From: an uncultured Pseudomonadota bacterium
GTDB lineage: Bacteria > Pseudomonadota > Alphaproteobacteria > Rs-D84
Reading direction: 5' to 3'
Length of the DNA stretch: 64,000 nt
Assembly (NCBI GenBank): GCA_902802115.1
Contig: CADCKW010000003.1
Span: 1 to 64,000, forward strand
Part shown: one piece after another, positions 6,164 to 59,656 of the stretch
How positions within the stretch are numbered: position 1 is the stretch's first letter
Layout: every line of letters begins with the position of its first letter
Notes under the pieces: generated by a model
Seen by the model: only the letters and a program-made list of their open reading frames with translations
The model's database searches: none
What the model was told of the DNA's origin: nothing
Translations under genes and position numbers: made by a program

Positions 6164-6715
6164 TTACATGCATTTAAACTCTTCTGGGTTTATTGATAGA
6201 TTTACGTCGTCGCATACGCAGGTATGACGAGATGATTCGTAATGCGCGCCATCTGGACATTTGTCGACACATTCACCAGATTTTGTGTCAAAATATAATC
6301 CTTCGTCTTGACATGCGCATCCGCCTGCAGTCGCGTTGTATGGCGCAAACTCTGGGCACATATAACATTTTTCATCATTGATGTTCCAGAAATAATGATT
6401 GTTTATGGCACATGTTTCTCTGTCCGCATCTATACATTCGCCTGTGCTCGCAGAGAATACCTGGCCTTCTTCACAAAGTTTGCATGCCATATCTTGGATA
6501 ACAAAGTTTAACTTAGGTTCTTCACATACACATTCTTGGGCGCTTTCGTTAAACGGTGCGCTTGGTGGGCATTCAACACATGATTGATCTTTCGATGACC
6601 AAACCATATTTTTGCTGGCGCACTCGCTTTGGCCGGCGGCAACACATCTGCCTGTTGATACATTAAATGTTGCAGATTTGTCTTCGCATACGCAACGCGG
6701 CAATGATGAGTTATA
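6164..6715 (-). pseudogene. Out-of-frame Cys-rich tail of the second giant gene
   Basis: About 183 codons continue the neighbouring giant protein in a shifted frame. The upstream frame ends in DES-I-stop at 6711, and this frame resumes with YNSSLPRC. Removing one A from the ATA codon at 6714-6716 joins the two smoothly. The tail carries repeated Cys motifs (CVCEDKS, CxxCPP, CACQDEG, CVCDD) spaced like the Cys-rich modules just upstream, so it clearly belongs to the same protein. A bidirectional terminator follows immediately. Either the gene is broken, the base is an assembly error, or a +1 frameshift is used. No classic slippery site is visible. Confidence 0.8.
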
Positions 6716-9700
6716 TTGATTCATCGTTAAAGTATGTACCCTCTGGACATTTATTGCATTTTGTTCCGTTCCAATATGTGTCGGGTTCTGCCAAGCAAGC
6801 ATTTTCGTCACCTGCATCTATGCACATATACCGTTGTTCATCTTCGTTATAAGCAACTTTTCTGGCCGGGTCGTCACATTTGCAACGTGATGACGGGGTT
6901 GTGCCTTTTGGATTATAAAACACAGATTCATCAGGACATTTTTCACACATGCCCTTGCCTTCTTCGGCGTGTTCGTTCCAGACCATATAATCTGTTTGAT
7001 TACATTTTTCCTGGTCTAATCCCGTATCGTTGCTGACCGCGGCATTTGCCGTTGCAGCGGCGACGGAGATATTTGCCACAGATGCCGCAATACTGGATTC
7101 TGCACGAATTTTTGCAGTGCCAATTGATGAGTCTTTTTGTTTTGCGGCTGTCAATTTTGATGAAATCGCATTCGCATTTGTATTATTTGCTGATGAATCC
7201 AATTTCACATTACCCGCAGAATCAACAACCAAACCACCACTTAATAATTGTGACAAATCTTTCATAGTCACGACTTGTGAACTGGTGTCGTCTTTGGTTG
7301 CGAATCCGGCACTGGTCAGTGCATTTTTAACATTTGTGTTGTTTAAACTGGATTGCAGTTGTTTTGCAAAGTCTGCGGTTGATACAACATCACTGGCCTT
7401 TGCAAAACCGGCATTGGTCATTGTTGTAGTCAGGTTGTTTTTGGTGACAACATTAGATTTGACACTTTGATTTGCCCCTGTACCAGTCACTGTGACCAAA
7501 CCAAGATTTGCCAATCTAGATGTTTCGGCATTTCTAAGTGCCTGACCGGCAGCAGAATTTTCGTCGCCTAAATCAGTGGTCGTGACAATGCTGGTTGCCC
7601 GTTGAAGTTGGCCAGAAGTACTCCTTGTTGCTAAACCTAAATCAATAAGTTCTGTTCCAACTGAATTTTGAATATCATTGGCGGTTTGACCAACCTTCAT
7701 ACTGGAAACATTGGTGCCTTTGCTGCCTGTCCAAGAAAGCATACCGGTTGATGAGTCAAATGTTGGTGTAAAGGATTCGCCCTTGATATCATTTACAAAA
7801 TTTGTTCGTGTCGATATCAATGCGGTTTTACCAGCATCATTCAACGCAAATGTCTTTTTGCCTTCGGCGACATCGGCATTAAACTTGGATTCTTCGGCTG
7901 TTTCACCACCCATCAATGACGGGTCGGCTTCAACGGCTGCCAAGCAAGTGGCCATAGATGTAAAGTATCCTTCGTTGCCGGACTTGGTTAAGTCAGTTGC
8001 CACATTGCCGCGCGCAACAAATGCGTTAATAGTTTTTGCAGCAGACATCTTTTTAACGTTTTGAACGGTTCTAAATCCGGTTGCCACAACGTGCGCTTTG
8101 CACCAAGTGTATGCAGCAGATTCGCCGTCTTCACCGTCTTCGCCAGCCATGATTTCGTCATAACGTTCTTTACATGCGGTCATAAAATCTGCATTGTTGC
8201 TGGATTTGCCGGTAAATCCGGTAATCGCCATTCTGGACTGGGGGGTTGTGTATGTTTTTGTATCCACAAACGCAGCCATCTTGGCACTGCCTAATTTTGC
8301 AGACATTCTCTTGCCAATACCTTCGGTCAAGTTAAGGACAGTCGGGTTTTGAACCAATGACAAACAGTATGCTGTGGAACCACCCATTATGGCTGTATAA
8401 TCCGCGTTTGTGAATTTGTCTGCACAGTCTTCTTTGGACGTTATTTTTGAATACAATTTCTTGACTATTTCAATATTGTCTTCGCAATACTGTTGTTCAG
8501 TAGATGTGCCAGACATAATTTCGTTATAACGCGCCTCGCATGCTTCCATAAATGTTGTGTCTGTTTTTGTGCTGCTGGCCTTGAACCCTGTCATTGCCAA
8601 ACGACCTTGGACAGTAGAGGTTGCTTTCAAATTTTGCATTTTTTCAGAACCAAATGTCCGGACCAATTTTTGACCAATACCAGCATTTAAATCAAGGGTA
8701 TCAACCTTTTGCACCAATGATAAGCAGTAAGATTTTGCACCACCCATGATTGCATTGTACATATCAGATGTGAATTGCTCGCATGATGTCACATTGCTGT
8801 ACAATGGCGTAATAATTTTTGTCAGGTTTGATACACCTTTATCGTCTTTTTCCATGCAATACGCATACCATGCAGTGTCGCCATCATCACCGGACATAAT
8901 GCTGTTGTAATTTGCAATACATGCGTCCAGCAACGATTTGCCACCGAATATTTTGGTTGCACTTGAATTCAAACGATCTGCGGCAGACTTACCAGTCACC
9001 AAATTTGCTGTTAAGGCACTCTTGGCTGCTGCCAAATCTTTGACATCTGTATTGCTCTTCATATACAGTTTCGCCATCTTTAAACCGACGCCATCGTCCA
9101 AAGACACTTTGTCAAATGTCGCCGTCAGGTTTGCACAGAATGCATCTGCACCACCGACCATTTTTGCATACATATCTGCGGTAAAGTTCGAACAATCGTC
9201 ACTGATTGTATCATTCGGGAACAATTTGCGTGCCAAATCACGATTTAATGTTCCGTCTTTGTAATGCTCGGCCTGGGCTTTACAATATGTGACCTCTGGC
9301 TTTTCGGCATCGTCGCCGGACATAATGCTGTTGTAATTTGCAATACATTCGTCCAATATCGAGAAATTCGAATCGTTCATACGTTGTTTTGCATCTTTGG
9401 CTTGCAATGTTCTCAACGCATCTTTGGCCGATGATAAACTTACACTTTTTTTCGTTGCGTAAATTTTGGCTAATTTTAAGCCGACACCTTCGTTCAAAGA
9501 TACACCCGTATTAAATGTTGCGTTCAAAGATGTGCAGTATGCGTTTGCGCCACCAATGATTGCAGCATATAAATCTTGGGTAAAGACCGATGGATCACAA
9601 GATGAAATACCTCTGTCTGGGTATAATTTTTGAATCAGTGTCAAGTTTGTGACATCACTTGGGTAATTGACAGCGTGTGCCTCGCAATAAATTTGTGATG

Positions 9701-12476
9701 CAGGTTTGCCGTTTTCACCTGGTTCGCCTTTGAAATTCACACCCTTGCCTTTTGCTGGGAACGAACAACTATTTTTTTCATCGTTACATGCGCAGATATA
9801 CAATAACGCATCGCTAACCTCTAAATTATAGTATGCATCTGCTTCGTGTTCTGCATCACAAGGTTTGCCAGACAATTCACTGTAATTATCAATTGTTCCA
9901 CGATACAGATAACCGTCGCCAGATTTTCCAGCCATGATTTCTTCGTATTTTTGCGCACAGGCATCAACAAAAGATATTGTTTTATTATTTAATGTGACCT
10001 TGGTCGCAACCTTTTGCGATGACAAAGTGCTGACAATCGTATCGCCAAACAAACGTTTCAAATTGTTTTTCACATTTAATGTTGATGAATCGACATTTTT
10101 AGCAACCATTAAACAGTATGCTTTTGGACCACCCATTATCGCATTATATTGTTCTTGGGTGAAATCGTCGCATGTTTTGACGGTTGATGCGCCATACAAA
10201 GGTTGAATTATTGATGTTAAGTTTGTGCCTTCGCTGCAGTATGAATACCATGCAGATTTTGGATTCATAATTTCATCGTATTTTTTCGCGCACGCAAATA
10301 CGAATTTTTCAGTTTGACCATTAATAGAAACACTGGCGGACAATCCGTTGTTTTTCAAATTGCTGACTGTGCCGGAACCAAATACATCTTCCAAAGTTTT
10401 ACCAATACCTTTGGTTGCGACCAAATAGTTGCTGTTTTCTTTGGCGTTTTTGGCAACCAACATACAATATGCCTTGGAACCGTCCATCAATGCGATATAT
10501 TCTTCTTCGGTAAAATTGTCGCATGTTTTTGATGTACCATATAATGGTTTGATAATATTATTCAAATTGTTGTCTGTGGTGCAATATGAATACCATGTTG
10601 TTTCAGCAGATACACCTGGGTCACCCTTGTCACCTTTTTCACCTTTTAATTCAATACCATCTTTTTCAGCTGGAAATCGGCAATTCTTGCCATTGGAATC
10701 GCAGTTATAAACATATAATTTACCTGTGTCTTGGGTGAAATAACCGTCGCCTTCAACAATGTCTGATATTTGTGTGACATTGTTCTTAACCAGGTTTTCA
10801 TATGTTTCGACACTGCCTTTTAATTTATAACTGGTTCCGTCTTTACCGTCCTTACCGCGTAAAAGTTCTTTCAATGTTTCGTCTTTGGCAATTATATTTA
10901 ATAAACTGCCATCGTCGTTAATGCCGCCGTCCAATACGGCAACGCGTGACGATAATGTTGAAACACTGTCATTGGTTGCAACATTTAAATCGCCGCTGTC
11001 TTTTAATAAACGTTTGGTCTTTAAATTTCTAATAATTGTGTCGTCCAAAGTTGTTGAATTCGCCAATGCGGCACTGACGGTTTTTTCATCAACAGTTGGA
11101 ATCTCATTTTTGCCGGCGAAAACATTGTCTAATTTATCAGTCAAACTTTCGACAGACACATCGCTGGCGGTTGCCAATTTTAAATTGTCCGACGCATCAA
11201 CAATATCGCGCTTTTTTAATTCATCAAAAATCAAGCCTTTGACACTCGATTCGTCTGGACCGATTTTGCCTGATAATTTTGCCTTGGCGGTTTCGTTGTC
11301 GGCAATGCTGGTTGCGATTGATACAGGATCAATCTGGGCAGTGGTGGCAACTTTTAATGTGTTTGCGCCATCGACAATTTGTAATCTTTGCAATTCGCCA
11401 GTTATCAAACCTTTGACACTCGATTCGTCTGGGCCGATTTTGCCAGATAATACCTGTTTTGCAGATTCACTGTCGGCGATGCTGGCCGCGATTGCTGCGG
11501 GTGCAATTTCATCTTTGGTTGCCAATTTTGAAAAAGCGACAGAATCGGTTGATAAAAACTTTTTATTATTTAATGCATCATTTGTGACAAAGCCGCGTTC
11601 GTTTAATGCCGTAGTTGTCACATAGCCTTTGGTGGCAACTTCGTCGGATACCATTTGTTTAAAGTTGCTGGAATTACGCAATGCATTTGTGACAGTGGCC
11701 TCGGTGACTTGGACTTCGCCCTTTTTTTCAACATCTAATGCACCATTTTTCAAAACACCAACCTCGGTTAATTCGTCTGTGATAATATCGCGAATATCTG
11801 TATCTTTTGGTTGGATTTTATCCGCCAATGTTGCGGTGGCACTGGAATCTGTGACAATTTTTTGCGCCAATGCCGTTGGTTCAATTTCTGTTTTCAATGC
11901 AAATGGCACAGTGTTTTTATCGTCAATCAAACCACGAACTTTTAAAATATTAACAACGGCACCGTTTTCGGTGTCTTCCAAGTCTTCGGTACGATTTGTT
12001 AAATTGTCAATACTTCTTTGCAAACTTTGATTCGAAGATTGTAAATCGGAAAGAGTATTTTTCAAGTCTGTATTTGTTGTTGTCAAATTTAATTCTTTGA
12101 CAGCATCTTCGACAGTATCTTCGACATCGCTGCGGGATAATTGATTGTCGCGCAGGTCGTTTTGTGCGGCGGTTAATCTGGCAATTTCCTGACGCAATTC
12201 GTCCAAAGCCGCAGAATTCACATTTTGGTTGTTATTGTTATTCGTGCGCGAAACAGGAACAATCGCAGGTGAAAATTTAGATAATGCTGACCCGCGTGAT
12301 GCATCGGGTGTCGCCGTTGATTGTGTCGCAACGGTTGATGTGACATTTCCGGCCGTTGGTTTTACAGCACTGTTCAAACTGAGTGACCCAGCACGAACAG
12401 TTGGTTGCAAAGCAACAGCCGCAGAACAACCCAAAACACCCAGAATTGTGGTGAAAAGACTTGAAAATTTTGACAT
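6711..12476 (-). CDS. Giant exported protein with coiled-coil, collagen-like and Cys4 repeats (frameshifted at C-terminus)
   Basis: 1921 residues from the ATG at 12476, chosen because AGGAG lies eight bases upstream; an in-frame upstream ATG lacks a ribosome site. Residues 1-29 form a signal peptide (cleavage VRA/GS; a lipobox-like VLGC is an alternative). In order follow an Asn-rich linker, a coiled coil (about 85-165), an ATK-type repeat array like the paralogue's, short collagen-like Gly-X-Y stretches near 540, 615 and 920, six copies plus one degenerate copy of a roughly 115-140-residue repeat with four Cys (about 625-1530), another ATK block (about 1535-1795), and a Cys-rich tail. The modules before two collagen stretches (KGSVETYENL, then GKLYVYN) resemble phage tail-fibre linkers. 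The likely role is a surface fibre; this is inference. The natural protein probably extends another 183 residues. Confidence 0.85.
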   Translation of the reverse strand: MSKFSSLFTTILGVLGCSAAVALQPTVRAGSLSLNSAVKPTAGNVTSTVATQSTATPDASRGSALSKFSPAIVPVSRTNNNNNQNVNSAALDELRQEIARLTAAQNDLRDNQLSRSDVEDTVEDAVKELNLTTTNTDLKNTLSDLQSSNQSLQRSIDNLTNRTEDLEDTENGAVVNILKVRGLIDDKNTVPFALKTEIEPTALAQKIVTDSSATATLADKIQPKDTDIRDIITDELTEVGVLKNGALDVEKKGEVQVTEATVTNALRNSSNFKQMVSDEVATKGYVTTTALNERGFVTNDALNNKKFLSTDSVAFSKLATKDEIAPAAIAASIADSESAKQVLSGKIGPDESSVKGLITGELQRLQIVDGANTLKVATTAQIDPVSIATSIADNETAKAKLSGKIGPDESSVKGLIFDELKKRDIVDASDNLKLATASDVSVESLTDKLDNVFAGKNEIPTVDEKTVSAALANSTTLDDTIIRNLKTKRLLKDSGDLNVATNDSVSTLSSRVAVLDGGINDDGSLLNIIAKDETLKELLRGKDGKDGTSYKLKGSVETYENLVKNNVTQISDIVEGDGYFTQDTGKLYVYNCDSNGKNCRFPAEKDGIELKGEKGDKGDPGVSAETTWYSYCTTDNNLNNIIKPLYGTSKTCDNFTEEEYIALMDGSKAYCMLVAKNAKENSNYLVATKGIGKTLEDVFGSGTVSNLKNNGLSASVSINGQTEKFVFACAKKYDEIMNPKSAWYSYCSEGTNLTSIIQPLYGASTVKTCDDFTQEQYNAIMGGPKAYCLMVAKNVDSSTLNVKNNLKRLFGDTIVSTLSSQKVATKVTLNNKTISFVDACAQKYEEIMAGKSGDGYLYRGTIDNYSELSGKPCDAEHEADAYYNLEVSDALLYICACNDEKNSCSFPAKGKGVNFKGEPGENGKPASQIYCEAHAVNYPSDVTNLTLIQKLYPDRGISSCDPSVFTQDLYAAIIGGANAYCTSLNATFNTGVSLNEGVGLKLAKIYATKKSVSLSSAKDALRTLQAKDAKQRMNDSNFSILDECIANYNSIMSGDDAEKPEVTYCKAQAEHYKDGTLNRDLARKLFPNDTISDDCSNFTADMYAKMVGGADAFCANLTATFDKVSLDDGVGLKMAKLYMKSNTDVKDLAAAKSALTANLVTGKSAADRLNSSATKIFGGKSLLDACIANYNSIMSGDDGDTAWYAYCMEKDDKGVSNLTKIITPLYSNVTSCEQFTSDMYNAIMGGAKSYCLSLVQKVDTLDLNAGIGQKLVRTFGSEKMQNLKATSTVQGRLAMTGFKASSTKTDTTFMEACEARYNEIMSGTSTEQQYCEDNIEIVKKLYSKITSKEDCADKFTNADYTAIMGGSTAYCLSLVQNPTVLNLTEGIGKRMSAKLGSAKMAAFVDTKTYTTPQSRMAITGFTGKSSNNADFMTACKERYDEIMAGEDGEDGESAAYTWCKAHVVATGFRTVQNVKKMSAAKTINAFVARGNVATDLTKSGNEGYFTSMATCLAAVEADPSLMGGETAEESKFNADVAEGKKTFALNDAGKTALISTRTNFVNDIKGESFTPTFDSSTGMLSWTGSKGTNVSSMKVGQTANDIQNSVGTELIDLGLATRSTSGQLQRATSIVTTTDLGDENSAAGQALRNAETSRLANLGLVTVTGTGANQSVKSNVVTKNNLTTTMTNAGFAKASDVVSTADFAKQLQSSLNNTNVKNALTSAGFATKDDTSSQVVTMKDLSQLLSGGLVVDSAGNVKLDSSANNTNANAISSKLTAAKQKDSSIGTAKIRAESSIAASVANISVAAATANAAVSNDTGLDQEKCNQTDYMVWNEHAEEGKGMCEKCPDESVFYNPKGTTPSSRCKCDDPARKVAYNEDEQRYMCIDAGDENACLAEPDTYWNGTKCNKCPEGTYFNDESI
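7094..7453 (-). repeat. Partner block of the near-identical paralogue segment (2-361)
   Basis: This is the copy in the second giant gene of the block at 2-361, about 97 percent identical by eye. It encodes the last coiled/ATK-type stretch just before the Cys-rich tail. Confidence 0.85.
7880..10600 (-). repeat. Array of six to seven Cys4 protein repeats
   Basis: Each unit begins with WYSYC, YCEAH or similar, has a Cys near the middle (for example TCDDF), then AIMGGxxAYC, and ends with C-A-x-x-Y-x-x-I-M before an acidic Gly-rich linker. Units start near 10600, 10255, 9693, 9293, 8880 and 8495, with a degenerate one near 8115. The family is not one I recognise. Confidence 0.8.
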
Positions 12477-23627: not shown

Positions 23628-26600
23628 TTGAGATTATTATCACGCATTTTTGGCGGATTTGTGCTGTTTGCCGTACTTGTTTTTGATGGCGTATCGTCGT
23701 CTTTTGCAGACATGTCGTGCAAAGAAGGTATGACATATTACCCCGAAGTCGGCGATTGTTGTTATGCCTTTGATGGCAAATCTTGTATTAGTGATTTCGA
23801 CGAATGGGTTGGAATCGTTGAATCGTTAGACTGTAAAGCTGGTTCTGGGGCATACGTAAATAGTGATGGTAATATCGTATGTTGTCCCGAAGAAATAACA
23901 CAACCAAATGAACTGTATCAATGTGAATGCTACGATGAACGTTTTGAATTTAACCCCAAAACCGGCGGGTGTGACCAATGTAAATATGGTATGACATGGT
24001 ATCCAGATGTCCCAGAAGAAGGTGCATGTTGTTATTTTTTTGATGATAAAAATAAAATAGAGTGCTTAACCGAACTTGATCAATGGATTAATTTCGCAAA
24101 AGACAGTCTTGACTGTGGCGAAAAAGGTGCATATGTTGATATCAATAACGAACCGCACTGTTGTCCAGAAGGGACGATAGCAAATGAATATTATGGTTGC
24201 TCATGCGAAAATCCCGCAATGACATTTAATAATGAAACCGGTATATGCGGATGCCCCGCTGGGTATTTCTGGGACGGTGGAACATGTCTGGTATGTCCAG
24301 AAGGATATACCTGTATAGGCGACCTTTATGAACCCAAACCAAATGTATATGCGATAACATTAAGAAATTATAATGATACAGGCACGCATCAAACCATTTA
24401 TGAAAAATATGACACTGGTTGGTATAGTAATTCCGCCGCAACAACGCAAATTACCAAGGCCAATATTCCAACACGTTCAGGATATAAATTTCGTGGATAT
24501 TACACATCGACACAGGCGGATTTAACCGCCAATGGCGGCGTTGGCACCAGAGTCATTACCAATGCAACATCAAATAATTTGCCGGTCAATACCACATTTA
24601 CCGCAAACACAAATTTGTATGCGGCATGGGCAAAAGATTGCACACAACCCGCAAACGGTTCATGCACATTGACCATAAACAGTAATGGAACCGCAACATA
24701 TACCGCCAGTTGTAATTCTGGATATGCACTCAGTGGGGACGGCACAGCCACCCCAACATGCACAGCAACCACCGCAAATTGTTATAGAATTGATTTAGAT
24801 AACGCAACCAATGGTGGAACCGGTGGTGCGCCAACATCGGTATATATGTATCGTGATGCAACAACATATGCCAACAGTTCGAATCAATCAAAATGGTGTA
24901 AATTATATACCGACAGTGCTTGCACAACCGAGGTTGCGTATTCTGGGAGTTATTATACACTTCCAACGACAAATCCAACAAAATCACACGCCACATTTTA
25001 TAATTATGTAGGAAGCAATGGTTCTTTACACTATTTCTATAGATCTCATATAAACTCTGAAATATCATACCCACAGGCTTGGGACAGTTGTATAGATCCA
25101 AACGGATATTATGGTATTAATTCGATTGGGTTTGATGCATCGCAAACACCATCTTTGACATTGACAGCAAAATACGACTGTGACGAGGGTTGGCGCGGCA
25201 GTTGCACTATATCAAATGTTTATAATGGATATAAATGTTTTTCCAATACCGCATGTACCGTATCACCAACATCAACAATATCATTTAATGCAAATGGTGG
25301 TTCGGGCGGACGTTCGGGAACCGTCACCGCCACATACGGCAGTATGCTTCCAGTTATCACAACCAGCAATTGGACCACCCCGCATCGTTTTGAATACAGA
25401 TTTACAGGATACAGCGATGCACAAAGTGGCGGCAATTTTTATTATGGCTCCACAGGTGCCTCTGGCACAGTGTGGGATAAAACAGCAAATACGACATTGT
25501 ATGCACAGTGGAATCTATTTATGGATAACAATAGCGGCAATAAATTGTATTTTTATGATGGCAACACATATAAATATCAAATTATGTGTTCGCGTAGCAG
25601 TTGCACATTACCCACATATTCCACAGCGGGTATTACCAAACCAAGCGGTGCAACATGGTTGGGCTGGGCATTTTTATGCGGCAATTATGAATATTGCGGT
25701 GCCGGGGACGCCACAGATACAGGATTATACGGCACAGGCAGTTCAAATGGCGCGACAAGTGTGGCAAACAATAATAATTTCTTTGGTCGTTATAACGAAG
25801 ACGAGTTGGATAGTTCTTTTGCCACTGGGTTGCATGCATGTTGGGAATTTTCTGTTAATTATAATTTAAATGGCGCAACTGACCAAATCGCGTTGATGTA
25901 TACAAAGTATAACAATTGTCAAGGTATGACTTTGCCGACACCAACACGCGAAAATTATATTTTTGATGGTTGGTATGATAATCCCAATTTTACTGGCAGT
26001 CCCGTCACAACAATTGCCGCGGGTTCCACAGGCACAAAAACATATTATGCAAAATGGACTGAATCGCCCTGTTGGCATACCGCGTTGGATAACACAACAT
26101 ACGGCGGAACCGGCGGAACAACCGATATTTATATAAACAAATCAACATGCAATGTTTATGCAAATGCTGGTTGTACCGGCAGTGCAATAACAGCATTGCC
26201 ATCAACACCAACCAAGGCGAACGCGTGGTATTCCGGACATTATATTCCGTCATCTACATGGGGTGCATTGATTAGCCCCAGTGGCAGTGACAGATTCACA
26301 AATTTAAAAACCGAATGTAATAGCAATAGATTTTATAGCACTTTGGTCGCAAAATATGGTTGTGATGACGGATATCATGCGGCGTCCAGTGCAACAAATG
26401 CAGCCTGTGTCACAAACAGTTATTCTGTGCATTTTAACAGTAATTGCCCAACAACCGCGTCTGGCACAATGAACAATCAAAGTTTTACATACGGAACCGC
26501 ACAAAATTTAACCAATAATGGTTTCAGCTGCACAGGATACACTTTCGCAGGCTGGGCAACATCGGCAAGTGGTGCCAAAGTATATAACAACCAAGAATCT

Positions 26601-29150
26601 GTGAGTGATTTAACAACAACAAATGGTGGGACATTTGAATTATATGCAAAATGGTCTGTGGGAACATATGGAATTTCGTATGTATTAAATGGTGGTTTAA
26701 ATGTTGATTTGGCAACATATACACCTGTGGAATATCTGTCCAGTAAATCAGCAAACAGTGCTTTCAGTTATTTTGATACCGGAACCAAATTTGATTTTGG
26801 TAAAGATTTTAGAGTTGTTGGTAAATTCAGCAACCCCAACACCAGTGCAAGACATATATTGTTAGGTAGTTATTACAATGGCGATAATATATTTAATATT
26901 GAATTAAAGACGAGTCCAACTGGTGCATTTAGAACTTACTTTGCTAGTGGCGCAGATGGTAATACTTCGCAAGCGATAGCGGCAAACACATGGACAGCAT
27001 ATGATGTATTTTATGATCCATTTTCACGCAAATCAAAAACTATTGCAGGAACTCAAAACTTTACTCTATCGGTTCCAAATGGTACAGGTGAAGTAGCGAA
27101 AGACATGCGAATGTTTTTAGATTATCGTTCTTCGCCATCGGCAGTTGCGTATCCTGTTAAGATGGCCGCAACGGCAATATATAAAAATAATGCGTTGGTC
27201 AATTATTATGTCCCAGTAAGAAATTCCAGCAATGTTTGTGGTATGTATGATGCTAAAAACGATGTGTTCAAAGCCAGTGCTACTGCGGCGGCATTTGATT
27301 GTCCATCGGTCAATACTATGCCAACCAGTTTTGCATATGATACAGGCGCCACAATTAGCGGTGTTCCTGTGCGTGCGCATAGTAAATTTGCCGGGTGGTG
27401 CACAAATTCTGCATTAACCCAAGGTTGTGCTATGACCAAAACCATTGCTGCAAATTCAACAAACGCATCACAAACATTTTATGCAAAATGGACCTGTGAT
27501 TCTGGATATCATGCATCAGGCAACGCATGTGTGGCGAACACGATTTCATTATCTTGGACAACCGCGCATGGAACCGCGCCAAGTTCTCCGTCGTCATGTA
27601 GTTATGGCGGAACATTTACCGCACCTGCGGCAATCACAGATGCCCCAGGATATGATTTCCAAGGTTGGAATATTAATGGCACACTGATTGCCGCCGGTGA
27701 AACGGTTTCATGTAATGAATTGGGTGTGGGCGCAATATCTGGCAATGTTTCCAATTCGGCAGTATGGTCACCAGCCAGTTATACCATCACTTTGAACGAT
27801 TCAACAAATGGCGGTACTGGCGGTTCAGGTTCTATAAAGGAAGTTTTTGATACCGAGTGGCAAGGTTCATCAGGAAGGATAACATCTGTGGCACAACCAA
27901 CCAAGGCGGCATCGGGACATGATTTTTATGTATTTACCGGTTATTCTACTGCGGCATCGGGCGGAACGATAAAAATTCATGGCGATGGCGTGTTGCCGGA
28001 ACCAACCATATTTACCGCAAATACAACACTGTATGCCCAGTTTGGAAAGTGTGCATGCACAACCGGCGATAATGTCACCAGTTGCACAGCAACCGGTGTA
28101 TCACGCAACCAATGCGAATATACTTATTCGTGTGCATCTGGGTTTAACAGCGGCGGCAATACATCTGGAACATTTACGGGCGATATCGGGGTTGCCAACA
28201 ATACCAGCCCTGATTGTTCTGGCAAGGTGAGTTATACAATGATATTAAAAAATCACGCTGGTTCGGCATGCAGTGTGACAGAGCAAAAATATTATTATGT
28301 GCCCATAGATAATAAATGGTATTCAGATAGCGCATTGACCAACGAAGTGACACATACCAGTTCCGACCCAACATGTCCTGGATACACTTTCCGCGGTTGG
28401 TATTGGGGCAACCCAACTGGTTTTAATGATAATTATACTTCAACTGCAGCAAATCGTGGGCAATTTGTCCAAGAAAACACCAGTGCGGCAAACAATAACG
28501 CACCAAACACTTACCAACCATACGCAAAAAATTCTGCGAATTTATCAGGAAAAACACTGAGTGCAAATAATAGTACGTATGCACGATGGGCGCGTAATTG
28601 TGACAGTGTTGAACATGGGCAATGCGATTTAACTGTCGCCGCCGACGGTTATGTCACATACGGTGTCACTTGTGATGCAGGACATTCGCCTGACCCGTCT
28701 GGGGGCGGTGTATATAATCCGTCCTGCCCGGCAGACATCTGTACCGCAGGTCAATATTTAAGCAATGGTGTTTGTACCGCATGCACCACAGGATATTATT
28801 GCGCCGATGGTGTAAATCGCACAGAATGCCCAATAGGATTATCTACACCGGACAACTCTATTGCCGAATATCATGATGACGCAGGTGATTGCGGACGCAT
28901 ATTACATATTGGCACATACGAAATACGGTTAAAATCTGTTCCCAGTGGCACAACTATACCTTCGCCGGCGGTGCGATTTGATTATGACGGCGATGGAACG
29001 GCAGATTTTTACGCACGTATGTCTTTGGTAGCATCGCCAATGCGTGTGACCAGTAGCGGACAAATTTCATCTGGAACAAATGAAAAGAATTTCAAAACAC
29101 GATATAATAATTCTGTGTATTATGTGTGTGATGACGGAACATGCAATTAA
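23628..29150 (+). CDS. Giant exported InlB-repeat surface protein
   Basis: 1840 residues. The start is a TTG with AGGGGA seven bases before it and a signal peptide directly behind (cleavage after SSFA, residue 27). Two Cys-rich modules (about 30-230) come first, each with a CxYxPE..CC pattern. About ten units of the InlB B-repeat type (Listeria-Bacteroides repeat) follow, recognisable by GYxFxGWY...TTLYAxW. Near residues 1035-1220 a LamG/concanavalin-A-like domain is inserted. The last 120 residues include CTAGQYLSNGVC and a small beta domain. The likely role is surface adhesion or matrix, from the family; the ligand is unknown. No sorting motif is visible. It ends at a strong terminator. Confidence 0.88.
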   Translation: MRLLSRIFGGFVLFAVLVFDGVSSSFADMSCKEGMTYYPEVGDCCYAFDGKSCISDFDEWVGIVESLDCKAGSGAYVNSDGNIVCCPEEITQPNELYQCECYDERFEFNPKTGGCDQCKYGMTWYPDVPEEGACCYFFDDKNKIECLTELDQWINFAKDSLDCGEKGAYVDINNEPHCCPEGTIANEYYGCSCENPAMTFNNETGICGCPAGYFWDGGTCLVCPEGYTCIGDLYEPKPNVYAITLRNYNDTGTHQTIYEKYDTGWYSNSAATTQITKANIPTRSGYKFRGYYTSTQADLTANGGVGTRVITNATSNNLPVNTTFTANTNLYAAWAKDCTQPANGSCTLTINSNGTATYTASCNSGYALSGDGTATPTCTATTANCYRIDLDNATNGGTGGAPTSVYMYRDATTYANSSNQSKWCKLYTDSACTTEVAYSGSYYTLPTTNPTKSHATFYNYVGSNGSLHYFYRSHINSEISYPQAWDSCIDPNGYYGINSIGFDASQTPSLTLTAKYDCDEGWRGSCTISNVYNGYKCFSNTACTVSPTSTISFNANGGSGGRSGTVTATYGSMLPVITTSNWTTPHRFEYRFTGYSDAQSGGNFYYGSTGASGTVWDKTANTTLYAQWNLFMDNNSGNKLYFYDGNTYKYQIMCSRSSCTLPTYSTAGITKPSGATWLGWAFLCGNYEYCGAGDATDTGLYGTGSSNGATSVANNNNFFGRYNEDELDSSFATGLHACWEFSVNYNLNGATDQIALMYTKYNNCQGMTLPTPTRENYIFDGWYDNPNFTGSPVTTIAAGSTGTKTYYAKWTESPCWHTALDNTTYGGTGGTTDIYINKSTCNVYANAGCTGSAITALPSTPTKANAWYSGHYIPSSTWGALISPSGSDRFTNLKTECNSNRFYSTLVAKYGCDDGYHAASSATNAACVTNSYSVHFNSNCPTTASGTMNNQSFTYGTAQNLTNNGFSCTGYTFAGWATSASGAKVYNNQESVSDLTTTNGGTFELYAKWSVGTYGISYVLNGGLNVDLATYTPVEYLSSKSANSAFSYFDTGTKFDFGKDFRVVGKFSNPNTSARHILLGSYYNGDNIFNIELKTSPTGAFRTYFASGADGNTSQAIAANTWTAYDVFYDPFSRKSKTIAGTQNFTLSVPNGTGEVAKDMRMFLDYRSSPSAVAYPVKMAATAIYKNNALVNYYVPVRNSSNVCGMYDAKNDVFKASATAAAFDCPSVNTMPTSFAYDTGATISGVPVRAHSKFAGWCTNSALTQGCAMTKTIAANSTNASQTFYAKWTCDSGYHASGNACVANTISLSWTTAHGTAPSSPSSCSYGGTFTAPAAITDAPGYDFQGWNINGTLIAAGETVSCNELGVGAISGNVSNSAVWSPASYTITLNDSTNGGTGGSGSIKEVFDTEWQGSSGRITSVAQPTKAASGHDFYVFTGYSTAASGGTIKIHGDGVLPEPTIFTANTTLYAQFGKCACTTGDNVTSCTATGVSRNQCEYTYSCASGFNSGGNTSGTFTGDIGVANNTSPDCSGKVSYTMILKNHAGSACSVTEQKYYYVPIDNKWYSDSALTNEVTHTSSDPTCPGYTFRGWYWGNPTGFNDNYTSTAANRGQFVQENTSAANNNAPNTYQPYAKNSANLSGKTLSANNSTYARWARNCDSVEHGQCDLTVAADGYVTYGVTCDAGHSPDPSGGGVYNPSCPADICTAGQYLSNGVCTACTTGYYCADGVNRTECPIGLSTPDNSIAEYHDDAGDCGRILHIGTYEIRLKSVPSGTTIPSPAVRFDYDGDGTADFYARMSLVASPMRVTSSGQISSGTNEKNFKTRYNNSVYYVCDDGTCN
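26745..27290 (+). other. LamG/ConA-like domain inserted between InlB repeats
   Basis: Within the giant protein, residues about 1035-1220 lack the repeat pattern. They read as a jelly-roll domain: YFDTGTKFDFGKDF, ARHILLGSYY, then VPVRNSSNVCGMYD near the end. Codon use also differs (CTA Leu, ACT Thr), hinting at separate origin. The fold assignment is by resemblance only. Confidence 0.5.
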
Positions 29151-56210: not shown

Positions 56211-56239
56211 TTGACTTTTCGGGGGTGAAGTATCATAAT
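56211..56239 (+). promoter_or_regulatory. Strong promoter of the rpsP operon
   Basis: TTGACT (56211-56216), 17 bases, CATAAT (56234-56239). Confidence 0.75.
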
Positions 56240-56245
56240 ACCCCT

Positions 56246-56380
56246 GCAAATCCCAAAGATTGCCATTTCAAACACCCCTGCGTGCGGTATGCACGAGGAA
56301 CACTCTCCGGCGAGTTTCGCCCTGGGTGTCGGTTTTCTTTGTGGTTTTAACAGATAACTTTTTAACAAGGAGTAATATAC
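56246..56380 (+). promoter_or_regulatory. Structured leader of the rpsP operon, possible attenuator
   Basis: The 135-base leader folds as ACACCC closing on GGGTGT, enclosing CGTGC-GGTAT-GCACG and GGCGA-GTT-TCGCC. The closing stem is followed by CGGTTTTCTTT, a weak T-rich tail, as in an attenuator. AAGGAG precedes the ATG. Confidence 0.5.
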
Positions 56381-56827
56381 ATGGCAACAGTTATCCGCTT
56401 GGCACGTTATGGTGCAAAAAAACGCCCTTATTATCACATTGTTGTGACAGATTCACGCAATGCACGTAATTCTGGTAATATTTTAGAGGTTGTTGGTAAA
56501 TACAACCCTATGTTAGCCAAAGACGACGAAAAACGCGTCATTTTGAAAATTGACGAATTGAAAGCATGGTTGGCCAAGGGTGCAAAACCTTCGGACCGCG
56601 TCTATAAATTTATGGTAAATGCTGGTTTGGCAACTGCAAAACCAATTCCAACACAAACCAAAAAGAATTTACCAAGCGAAAAAACACAACAAAAGGCAAA
56701 AGACAAAGCTGACAAGTTGGCAAAAATCGCCGAAGAAAAAGCCGCTGCAGAGGCCGCAGCCAAGGCAGCCACAGAGGCACCAGCCGAAGCCCCAGCTGAA
56801 GCACCTGCCGAAACAGTTGCGGAGTAA
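56381..56827 (+). CDS. rpsP: 30S ribosomal protein S16, long form
   Basis: 148 residues. The S16 core (1-80: [30 protein letters not shown]) is normal. The tail (about 90-148) is Lys/Ala/Pro/Glu-rich low complexity ([16 protein letters not shown]), longer than usual. First gene of the operon. Confidence 0.97.
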
Positions 56828-56834
56828 TAATTAC

Positions 56835-57287
56835 ATGCAAAATAGACCGAAGTATTCCGATTTAGAATTAAAACACGCGTTAAGCGATGTGTTCGCTTCG
56901 GTCTATTTTATTGATAAACGCGCAAAGAAAAAACTGAACGATAGTTATTTTTTGAACTTTGACAGTTTAATTGCCTATGCACGCGAAAATCATATTGACG
57001 AAATGCAATATATTCGCAGTATCCAACAAGATTTATTAACCATACCGCAAACATATTTGGCGCGCCCTTTCTATACCAAATATGAATTAAAACGCGCAAT
57101 GACAAATGTGTTTAATTCTGTGTATTTTGATGATTTATCTGCAAAAATCAATATACAAGACAGTTATTTCTTGAATTTTGATTCTTTTGTAAATTATGCG
57201 CAAAAACATAATATCGACCCAATGAATCATATAAACGGTATTCGCGATATGCTGTTGGAATTACCTGGCTGTCACGAAAGAGCATAA
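56835..57287 (+). CDS. Internally duplicated helical protein in the rpsP operon
   Basis: 150 residues, ATG at 56835 eight bases after the rpsP stop. It consists of two similar halves of about 65 residues: ELKHALSDVFASVYF...DSYFLNFDSLIAYAREN and ELKRAMTNVFNSVYF...DSYFLNFDSFVNYAQKH (parts). Soluble, mostly helical, no Cys except near the end. A ribosomal-operon position suggests a tie to translation. No family recognised. Confidence 0.8.
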   Translation: MQNRPKYSDLELKHALSDVFASVYFIDKRAKKKLNDSYFLNFDSLIAYARENHIDEMQYIRSIQQDLLTIPQTYLARPFYTKYELKRAMTNVFNSVYFDDLSAKINIQDSYFLNFDSFVNYAQKHNIDPMNHINGIRDMLLELPGCHERA

Positions 57288-57297
57288 GGGTAAAATT

Positions 57298-57504
57298 ATG
57301 AGTAATGTTAATTGCCCGTACGATAGTCAATATTGCCAGAAAAAAGACCAGATATTTTCTGGGTGGGTAAAAATCGTGACAAACTATACAATGCCCCAAC
57401 CCATAAATCCTGATGATTTTTCAGGTTGTCCAGGGGTTAAAACCTGTGCCAGACATCCCGAGTTTTTATCAAACCAAAGGTCCAAAGGTCATGAACGACA
57501 ATAA
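57298..57504 (+). CDS. Small Cys-rich protein in the rpsP operon
   Basis: 68 residues, ATG with AAGGG upstream. Cys pairs CPYDSQYC and GCPGVKTC suggest a small metal or disulfide site. The end overlaps the rimM start by 14 bases, which supports real translation. No family recognised. Confidence 0.6.
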   Translation: MSNVNCPYDSQYCQKKDQIFSGWVKIVTNYTMPQPINPDDFSGCPGVKTCARHPEFLSNQRSKGHERQ

Positions 57505-57955
57505 AAAAATTTTGGTTGGTAAAATTGTTGCAATGCAAGGTGTGCGTGGTGATGTGCGTATTCAAACATACACTGAAAACCCGGCAGATTTTCAAAAATT
57601 CAAAATTCAAAGTTCAAAGTTTAATCCTGATGATTTCAAATTCATTCGTGTTTTGCCTAATTCATCTGTGATTATTGCACACATCAACGGATTTGAAGAC
57701 CGAACGTCAGCCGAGGCTTTGCGCGGAACAGAATTATTTGTCGCGCGCAATGATTTACCAGACACAAAACCCGGCGAATATTACCAGGCCGATTTAATTG
57801 GATTTACAGTTATACAAAATGGTGAAAAGGTCGGCATTATTTCAGGATTTCAAAACTTTGGCGCAGGCGATATTATCGAAACATCTGTCGGCAATATGTA
57901 TTCGTTCAAAGGCGCAGAAGTTGATTTAAACAATAAAACTGTGACAGTAAAATAG
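57491..57955 (+). CDS. rimM: 16S rRNA processing protein RimM
   Basis: 154 residues from the ATG at 57491. Ribosome maturation factor that binds the 30S head and S19. RimM N-terminal domain (VGKIVAMQGVRGDVRIQ, with GVRGDVRI) and C-terminal PRC-barrel (EYYQADLIGFTV). Between rpsP and trmD as in most bacteria, though with extra small genes. Confidence 0.93.
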   Translation: MNDNKKILVGKIVAMQGVRGDVRIQTYTENPADFQKFKIQSSKFNPDDFKFIRVLPNSSVIIAHINGFEDRTSAEALRGTELFVARNDLPDTKPGEYYQADLIGFTVIQNGEKVGIISGFQNFGAGDIIETSVGNMYSFKGAEVDLNNKTVTVK

Positions 57956-57967
57956 AGGTATATTGTT

Positions 57968-58204
57968 ATGAGTAATAAAAGTTCAACAATGGTTGAAGTA
58001 GATGTGACACCCGTTTCTTTTCAATGCTATGATACAGGCGAATGCCCTGCAATTAATGTATTGAAAAACGAAATGCCGTCTGTAAAAATCGAACCCAGAA
58101 ACGATGGGACATTTATTGCAAAATGCCCTATTCCTGACTATCCAAGAGCACAACAAACCGTTAATACTATTTGTATGGGCTGTCGCGCACGCGGGGTTAG
58201 ATAA
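57968..58204 (+). CDS. Small Cys-rich protein between rimM and trmD (1)
   Basis: 78 residues, AGAGG before the ATG. Cys at QCYDTGEC, AKCPIPDY, ICMGC. Zinc-ribbon-like spacing but unpaired. No signal peptide. No family recognised. Confidence 0.6.
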   Translation: MSNKSSTMVEVDVTPVSFQCYDTGECPAINVLKNEMPSVKIEPRNDGTFIAKCPIPDYPRAQQTVNTICMGCRARGVR

Positions 58205-58238
58205 CAACAAAAAAGTAAAAAAAAAAGAAGTATCAATT

Positions 58239-58529
58239 ATGACCGAAAGATTTAAACCTTACTATTTTAAAGCCTTTTATGTTAACAATAATCTGGAACC
58301 ACTGATAACAACAAAATGTTCAGAAATTGAAGAAGTGTGCCCTGTCTTGGTGTATGGCAAGAAACAAAATATGAATATACAAGAAGGATTTTCCTTAAAA
58401 ATGATAGGTTTTTACAAAGTCCAAGTAACAGACAAGCATATTTTTAGGGTGGTTGGCGCCCAAAATCAATTAAAACAAAATATTTGTGATATATGCAACG
58501 AATGCCAAACCAAGAAAAAAACAAGATAA
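58239..58529 (+). CDS. Small Cys-rich protein between rimM and trmD (2)
   Basis: 96 residues from the ATG at 58239 (AAGAAG upstream); the longer open frame upstream overlaps the previous gene. Contains KCSEIEEVC and a terminal CDICNEC cluster. Lys-rich. It ends four bases before trmD. No family recognised. Confidence 0.6.
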   Translation: MTERFKPYYFKAFYVNNNLEPLITTKCSEIEEVCPVLVYGKKQNMNIQEGFSLKMIGFYKVQVTDKHIFRVVGAQNQLKQNICDICNECQTKKKTR

Positions 58530-58532
58530 AAA

Positions 58533-59219
58533 ATGCATTTTAATATATTGACCATTTTTCCTGAATTATTCCCTGGCACACTGGGTGCGGGTGTGGTTGG
58601 TCGCGCATTAAACAAAAATATTTGGTCGATGGATATTATAAACATTCGCGATTTTGCCATAAATAATTATGGCAGTGTTGATGACGAACAATTTGGTGGT
58701 GGCGCAGGTATGGTTATGCGACCTGACGTGTTGGGCGACGCATTGGATTCTGTTAAAAACAAAGGTAAAATCATATACTTTTCGCCACGCGGTAATGTTT
58801 TAAATCAAAAACGCGTGCGCGAATTTGTCGCCGATAAAGATGCGACATATACCCTGATTTGTGGCAGATATGAAGGCATTGATGAACGCGTTTTACAAGA
58901 ATACGATGTGTTGGAAATTTCTGTGGGGGATTATATTTTATCCGGTGGCGAAATTGCCGCGCAGATTTTTATTGACAGTTGCGTTCGCGTGATGGATAAT
59001 GTGTTGCACGGTGGCGCAGATTCCACCAATAATGAAAGTTTCGAAATCGGCGGGTTAGAATGGCCGTTATATACCCGTCCGTCAGTATGGCGCGGACACA
59101 AAGTCCCAGAAGTCCTGCTGTCCGGTCACCACGGCAATATCGAACGGTGGCGGAATCAACAATCGGACGAAATAACAAAACAAAGACGTCCGGATTTAAT
59201 AAAGGAAAACAAAAAATGA
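58533..59219 (+). CDS. trmD: tRNA (guanine-37-N1)-methyltransferase
   Basis: 228 residues. SPOUT-fold methyltransferase that modifies G37 next to the anticodon to keep the reading frame. Knot motifs: IFYFSPRG-type ([11 protein letters not shown]), [22 protein letters not shown]. The C-terminal helical domain ends in [11 protein letters not shown]. Stop overlaps the rplS start (ATGA). Confidence 0.97.
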
Positions 59220-59605
59220 ATATTTTGAAAAAAATTGAAGCAGAACAAGTCGCAAAAATGAAAGGTGATAAAGTTATCCCTAACTTTAAAGCTGGTGACA
59301 CAGTAAAAGTTCATGTCAAAATTAAAGATGGCGATAAATTCCGTATCCAAATGTTCGAAGGCGTTGTTATCGCACGCGATGGTGGAACGGGGAATAACGC
59401 ATCATTTACAGTTCGTCGTGAATCTTATGGTGTTGGTGTTGAACGTAAGTTCCCATTATATTCACCTGCGATTGAAAAAATCGAAAAGGTTCGTATCGGT
59501 CGTGTTCGTCGTGCTAAATTGTTCTTTTTACGCAAATTGTCTGGTAAAAAGGCTCGTATTGTCGAAGATTTGGCGGCAACATCGGCAGAAAAATCGGCAA
59601 AATAA
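59216..59605 (+). CDS. rplS: 50S ribosomal protein L19
   Basis: 129 residues, AAAGGA nine bases before the ATG. L19 motifs [39 protein letters not shown] and [17 protein letters not shown] are all present. Last gene of the rpsP operon, followed by a terminator. Confidence 0.97.
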
Positions 59606-59627
59606 TTTTTGCAAAAATATAAAAAAA

Positions 59628-59656
59628 AGGACCGCGATTTCGTGGTTCTTTTTTTA
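59628..59656 (+). terminator. Terminator of the rpsP operon
   Basis: AGGACCGCG (59628-59636) pairs with CGTGGTTCT (59641-59649) and is followed by seven T. Confidence 0.8.

Follow-up and report, generated by a model that had tools for sequence, protein, structure and literature searches.

The rpsP-rimM-trmD-rplS operon is regarded as exceptionally stable among bacterial operons. Chromosomal hotspots carry exchangeable defence or immunity cassettes between conserved genes, and the orphan immunity genes of polymorphic toxin systems are small and fast-diverging, often stand several in a row and encode products of acidic charge. Small zinc proteins with four cysteines (C4) are found among the ribosomal proteins, bL31, bL33 and bL36 being examples.

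Here we describe extra small genes in two intervals, or slots, on either side of rimM, in a 64,000-nt stretch of an uncultured bacterial genome (the window) and in its relatives. As in chromosomal hotspots, variable small genes stand amid conserved ones and their content is exchanged among relatives while the flanks are retained. In contrast to hotspots, the slots lie inside a translation operon, with which they are predicted to be co-transcribed, they are two in number with separate cargo families, and their genes match no known defence or immunity family. The slot genes resemble orphan immunity genes in being small, fast-diverging and often arranged in a row, but their products are positively charged, show no convincing match to an immunity family and have no toxin partner at the locus. 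Like the small C4 ribosomal proteins, the C4 proteins of the slots are small and basic, contain four cysteines and are linked to ribosomal genes; unlike them, they vary widely in number and kind between close species, and the two groups have no sequence match. Cargo between conserved genes is thus already known, and the new part is its place inside a translation operon, the two slots with separate families, and a common C-terminal tail. No paper describing slots that flank rimM was found in a literature search, most subscription journals lying outside its reach.

Layout of the operon

The genes of the window are co-directional and follow the order rpsP–P0001–P0002–rimM–P0003–P0004–trmD–rplS. 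The interval between rpsP and rimM is referred to as gap A, and that between rimM and trmD as gap B. The features are as follows:

56211..56239, + strand: probable operon promoter, TTGACT-17-CATAAT (consensus scan)
56250..56345, + strand: candidate structured 5' leader with three stems (45 aligned leaders)
56381..56827, + strand: rpsP, encoding S16 (Pfam PF00886, 7e-22; TIGR00002, 3e-24)
56835..57287, + strand: P0001, family H, gap A; 150 aa, a helical domain in two copies
57298..57504, + strand: P0002, family A4C, gap A; 68 aa, 4 Cys, CPx5C...CPx4C
57491..57955, + strand: rimM, 154 aa (TIGR02273, 3e-29; PDB RimM 2f1l, 3e-15)
57968..58204, + strand: P0003, family B4C, gap B; 78 aa, 5 Cys, Cx5CP...CxxC
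58239..58529, + strand: P0004, family B4C (diverged second copy), gap B; 96 aa, 5 Cys
58533..59219, + strand: trmD (homologue in 171 of 183 family genomes)
59216..59605, + strand: rplS, encoding L19 (named from sequence; conserved beside trmD in relatives)
59622..59655, + strand: probable operon terminator, a 15-pair stem with a T-run (consensus scan)

Both Pfam and NCBIfam support the identities of rpsP and rimM. The gene listed as trmD is presumed to be such from its sequence, the operon context, its conservation in relatives and general knowledge. The initial annotation had placed four small genes, three of them Cys-rich, inside this operon, and all four ORFs were recovered where it had put them. 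It had further reported start and stop overlaps among the small genes, which holds for P0002, running 14 nt into rimM, whereas the other small genes are separated by short spacers of 3 to 34 nt; trmD and rplS overlap by 4 nt. Between the promoter-like site ahead of rpsP and the strong terminator behind rplS, a consensus scan of the window showed no strong sense-strand terminator inside gaps A and B, an arrangement that would suit a single transcript.

In most of the aligned relatives shown, TTGACTTT followed by a -10-like TAATA element lies upstream of rpsP. The RNA downstream of the promoter (56250-56345) may fold into three stems in which several pairs change on both sides (AU/UA, GC/AU, UA/CG, and CG/UA) among the 45 operons; it has no match in Rfam and is a candidate ribosomal-protein leader. 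A perfect 14-nt inverted repeat, AAAATAGACCGAAG / CTTCGGTCTATTTT, spans the start of P0001 (56839-56909) and could fold at the ribosome-binding region. With respect to integron-type recombination-site repeats, the region 56700-58700 contains only short imperfect repeats, mostly derived from the internal duplication of P0001.

The window's RimM matches TIGR02273 as far as profile position 130 of 166, its C-terminus being shorter than in solved RimM proteins and the last part of the PRC-barrel region absent. Compensation for the short RimM by the proteins of gap B was considered and rejected, as RimM is about 154 aa long throughout the genus, with slot B filled or empty.

Occupancy, selection and exchange of the slots

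To judge from its size, its habitat and the size of its genus, the genome of the window (0.95 Mb, 7 contigs) is probably that of a member of Candidatus Enterousia, a genus of the GTDB order Rs-D84 that the NCBI taxonomy places within Alphaproteobacteria. In the literature, Candidatus Enterousia is a gut lineage with reduced genomes and a possible dependence on partners (PMC12306168). The nearest relative met in the analysis is the rumen metagenome-assembled genome RUG13870 (G041; 97% for trmD).

A total of 80 trmD neighbourhoods were sampled, the core genes were located, and the ORFs between them were listed. Among the 65 genus operons with all junctions readable, 63 have extra DNA with ORFs in gap A, gap B or both. 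A gap of at least 120 nt was observed for gap A in 55 operons, for gap B in 53, for both in 45 and for neither in 2, whereas almost no operon has an open junction between trmD and rplS. For other genera, eight readable operons were available, in six of which gap A measures 73 nt or less, while gap B measures 329-1383 nt in seven of the eight; since gap A is mostly closed and gap B open in these genera, gap B may be the older slot.

Classification of the slot ORFs gave two families per gap. All 84 ORFs assigned to A4C (58) or H (26) are located in gap A, and all 72 assigned to B4C (53) or V (19) in gap B, the remaining 35 slot ORFs falling outside the four families. In a few operons (e.g., L070_B1 and B1 of the window) the ORF caller took wrong long frames, with manual correction limited to the window, L070 and L110. 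Family V, with the motif CxCVHxC...CPx...CxG, is absent from the window. Alignments were built for B4C (A1, including P0003 and P0004), A4C (A2, including P0002), V (A3), and H (A4, including P0001). Profile A1 matched 38 of 95 family genomes, all from genus g1 except for one marginal match, and among 240 genomes across the class only the window's own. Matches to the other profiles were found in genus g1 only (A2, 38 of 95 family genomes; A3, 32 of 190 genomes of the order; A4, 38 of 201 genomes of the order). Because profile matches are fewer than filled slots, diverged members escape these counts. The sites of A1, A2 and A3 lie nearly all beside trmD. The initial annotation's description of the small genes as lineage-specific is thus borne out, matches being essentially confined to one genus. 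Absence of such genes from close relatives, which would have spoken against the annotation's proposal, was checked for and not observed, as relatives have genes of these kinds in the corresponding positions.

The few homologues outside the operon sit in small gene clusters near rpsB, near frr, near a prmC-like gene with ACP-domain proteins, or just downstream of rplS; prmC, frr and rpsB are presumed identities obtained by reading the sequences. In one such cluster (L197, 1177-2895), two acyl-carrier-domain proteins (PF00550) with a Cys-rich C-terminal part flank a B4C protein beside the prmC-like gene. In two genomes (L194, 1462-1863, and L195, 1684-2304), uncharacterised proteins share GIFVGGKPxTxYRGE beside A4C-type genes.

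Several features indicate that the slot genes are coding. ORFs cover 91% of the gap DNA in the sense direction, compared with 32% in antisense and 17% in shuffled DNA. Pairwise dN/dS values of the small genes are mostly between 0.04 and 0.5, with a median near 0.2 and two higher values (0.66, and 1.63 based on 7 changes), compared with approximately 0.03-0.2 for core genes. Most small genes are thus under purifying selection, which is less strict than in the core. Sense-strand cover, dN/dS and the occupancy of one or both gaps in 63 of 65 operons led us to reject chance ORFs as an explanation. The median distance from stop to start is 2 nt, and 139 of 187 junctions overlap or are separated by 10 nt or less.

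The content of the slots varies between close species. The window and G041 share a core that is about 94% identical and a gap A that is 97.3% identical, whereas their gaps B are different: the G041 homologue of P0003 is 56% identical to it, and a different Cys-rich protein stands in place of P0004. Between G041 and G103, in contrast, gap B is 99.5% identical over 605 nt against 85.8% for the core, the change in identity falling inside the 3' end of rimM and the 5' start of trmD. Synonymous divergence gives further cases, namely, the first gap-B gene in G121 and G129 (dS 0.017 vs. 0.25-0.36 for the core), the second gap-B gene in G121 and G076 (0.065 vs. 0.44-0.66), and P0001 in the window and G041 (0.050 vs. 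about 0.2 for its neighbours). At the level of assembled sequences, these comparisons show that at least one whole slot has moved between species without the core genes that flank it. A slot at least 97% identical within a core below 90% was observed for one pair among the 64 compared operons, and no exchange rate is claimed on the basis of so few pairs and one strong case. The genomes are all presumed to come from metagenomes, so that any single swap might, in principle, reflect chimeric assembly. P0001 and P0003 had no match among 50,697 phage records, a search of viral contigs with the V pattern gave no confirmed relative, and P0002 was not found in plasmids.

Protein families and their C-terminal tails

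The two slots are shown by these comparisons to hold four unrelated small-gene families, each faithful to its slot, which read as coding and vary in content between close species. A common origin was rejected for the three pairs of profiles compared (A1/A2, A1/A3, and A2/A4), none of which showed a relation. P0004 matches the B4C profile with E=1.9e-14, P0004 itself being included in the profile alignment, and is 13% identical to P0003. Searches of Pfam, NCBIfam, PHROGs, PADLOC and PDB sequences returned nothing convincing for P0001-P0004. The PADLOC models gave none for P0002-P0004 and for P0001 only a weak match to SduA (E=0.0044, 14 bits); likewise, Imm40 matched P0001 below the cut-off (E=0.079), and no immunity family matched P0002-P0004. 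P0003/P0004, P0002 and the H and V families are new to the libraries searched.

P0001 had been described as a duplicated-domain protein, and its two domain copies are indeed 49% identical to each other. Its structural model (pLDDT 78) consists of two four-helix units, one per copy, and has no structural match. The model of P0003, obtained from 4 sequences with a mean pLDDT of 73, would have the order beta-alpha-alpha-beta-beta-alpha, as expected of a type I KH domain. The PDB returned KH domains and metallochaperones among the top matches, all without significance (best E=0.029, TM 0.57, rmsd 5.6), and no significant match was found in a viral structure library. The KH-defining GxxG loop is absent from P0003, which has CYDTGECP between its first two helices, a segment that is variable in relatives. 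No function is read from either model.

In the C4 families, the cysteines are the conserved framework. C20, C26, C69 and C72 are invariant across 25 aligned members of B4C, and four cysteines are invariant across 21 aligned members of A4C, which is partly due to selection, as members were picked with at least four Cys, their spacing pattern being no criterion. The four cysteines and the start Met are the only invariant residues of both alignments, in which identity to the first row is mostly 12-25% for A1 and 17-41% for A2. Such conservation makes a metal link plausible, and suggests for A4C and B4C a zinc-stabilised scaffold with a variable surface. In a reduced cytosol, and with no obvious signal peptide, these proteins would be built on a structural zinc supporting a surface that otherwise evolves quickly. 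Some A4C proteins (L123_A1, L127_A1, L147_A1, and L090_A2) begin with a stretch of the form MKKxYVxPxxxxxxxxxxxLLAxS, which we take to resemble leaders of small proteins in other bacteria.

Unrelated families, both inside and outside the operon, have tails ending in arginine. Among 156 distinct slot-protein tails (last 12 residues), 95 end in Arg and 38 in Lys (133 in total), compared with 14 and about 52 (66 in total) among 164 control proteins of at least 150 aa encoded outside the operon. Terminal Arg thus characterizes 61% of slot tails and 9% of controls (p 1.8e-24, a value that overstates the evidence because related proteins are not independent). In the small clusters around the homologues outside the operon, the other members likewise tend toward Arg or Lys ends. 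The terminal Arg codons are of both kinds, AGA and AGG on the one hand and CGA, CGT, CGG, and CGC on the other. The idea that the terminal Arg merely follows from the sequence of the next ribosome-binding site was rejected: only 15 of 180 tails contain AGGA, GGAG, or GAGG, CGN codons are frequent, and the purine-only Glu and Gly codons are almost absent. A preference for Lys and Arg as the C-terminal residue is general in bacteria (1.76-fold for Arg) and affects protein level (PMC7246954). The slot tails share with this general bias a positively charged last residue but differ in that their Arg frequency is approximately seven times that of same-genome controls and is common to unrelated families. 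The mean charge per residue is +0.032 in gap A and +0.048 in gap B, compared with −0.016 for the long ORFs of the window, and much of the extra charge sits in the last six residues. The basic tail ending in Arg, as the feature common to the families, may stabilise small proteins or be read by a partner, and offers a simple hint, open to testing, that the slot proteins share one fate.

Possible roles of the slot proteins

We interpret the gaps flanking rimM as variable cargo slots inside a growth-coupled operon. Exchange of their content would proceed by ordinary homologous recombination in the conserved flanking genes, and co-transcription with ribosomal proteins would provide steady high expression. 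The whole genus would then keep a stable operon open at two places, tying variable genes to growth-rate expression and to conserved recombination anchors.

Given their turnover and swapping, the slot genes are more likely to act in conflict or partner interaction than in fixed housekeeping for translation, and we tentatively prefer, at somewhat less than even probability, a genus-wide recombining cargo region with the former function, directed at phage, at toxin immunity or, through effectors, at a host or partner cell. Since the slots probably belong to an uncultured group with a suggested dependence on partners, the slot genes may be where its interactions are encoded. A more specific version of this interpretation, in which each of two slots carries its own unrelated families, swapped via the flanking core genes, and the common Arg tail is read by a machine, is doubtful. 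Several observations argue against a conflict role. In most genomes the families keep to one chromosomal place rather than to defence islands; no toxin, phage target or secretion-machine partner was found, PADLOC giving one weak match and the operon neighbours being core genes; and the few members outside the operon adjoin translation genes (rpsB and frr), which fits a translation-linked role.

The same operon context and the rpsB and frr neighbours keep alive a translation accessory role, which we consider possible, at a lower probability than the conflict or partner role. The slot proteins would then be lineage-specific accessory factors of the ribosome or of translation. As small, basic zinc proteins, they would bind tRNA, the ribosome or its assembly intermediates, and their auxiliary role would account for their fast divergence. 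The fixed place in rpsP-rimM-trmD-rplS with RimM between the slots, the positive mean charge, the off-operon members near rpsB, frr and rplS, and the weak KH-like fold match of P0003 are consistent with such factors. However, much of the extra charge is confined to the last six residues, the KH match is poor (E=0.029, rmsd 5.6) and lacks GxxG, and the genes are exchanged between species, with no member common to all genomes and two operons without any. For the translation factors suggested by the initial annotation, the fixed place in the operon speaks for some link to translation, whereas turnover, exchange and the lack of a universal member speak against ordinary housekeeping.

Returning to interaction with partners, the slot proteins could be secreted effectors whose basic C-terminal tail is a translocation signal and whose target is the host or partner cell of a partner-dependent bacterium. 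Fast-evolving surfaces, tails that end in Arg in unrelated families within the operon and beyond it, and a terminal Arg or Lys in 133 of 156 tails, as expected of the basic tails of type IV secretion system (T4SS) substrates, are in line with this, as are the reduced genomes and suggested partner-dependent lifestyle of the likely genus (PMC12306168). Nevertheless, we regard it as unlikely, since the T4SS ATPase model PF19044, the only one searched, gave no match over the cut-off in the genus (three weak matches near E=0.001), and co-expression with ribosomal proteins is unusual for effectors.

Slightly less probable still is a gene nursery, i.e., an operon with strong, leaky expression where small genes of little function newly form and vanish. 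Very high turnover and divergence would be expected of it, but purifying selection already weakens this explanation, and four families traceable across the genus, invariant Cys frameworks and strict slot fidelity count against it. Metal storage or sensing is the least probable role, as the four invariant cysteines of each C4 family, which suggest it, fit in number a structural site and not a metallothionein, neither family H nor most of the rest of each protein is Cys-based, and no metal-handling genes are neighbours.

Elsewhere in the window, two very large proteins are encoded. The protein of 1921 aa (6711-12476) has no family match above the cut-off, and that of 1812 aa (23712-29150) carries Listeria-Bacteroides repeats (PF09479).
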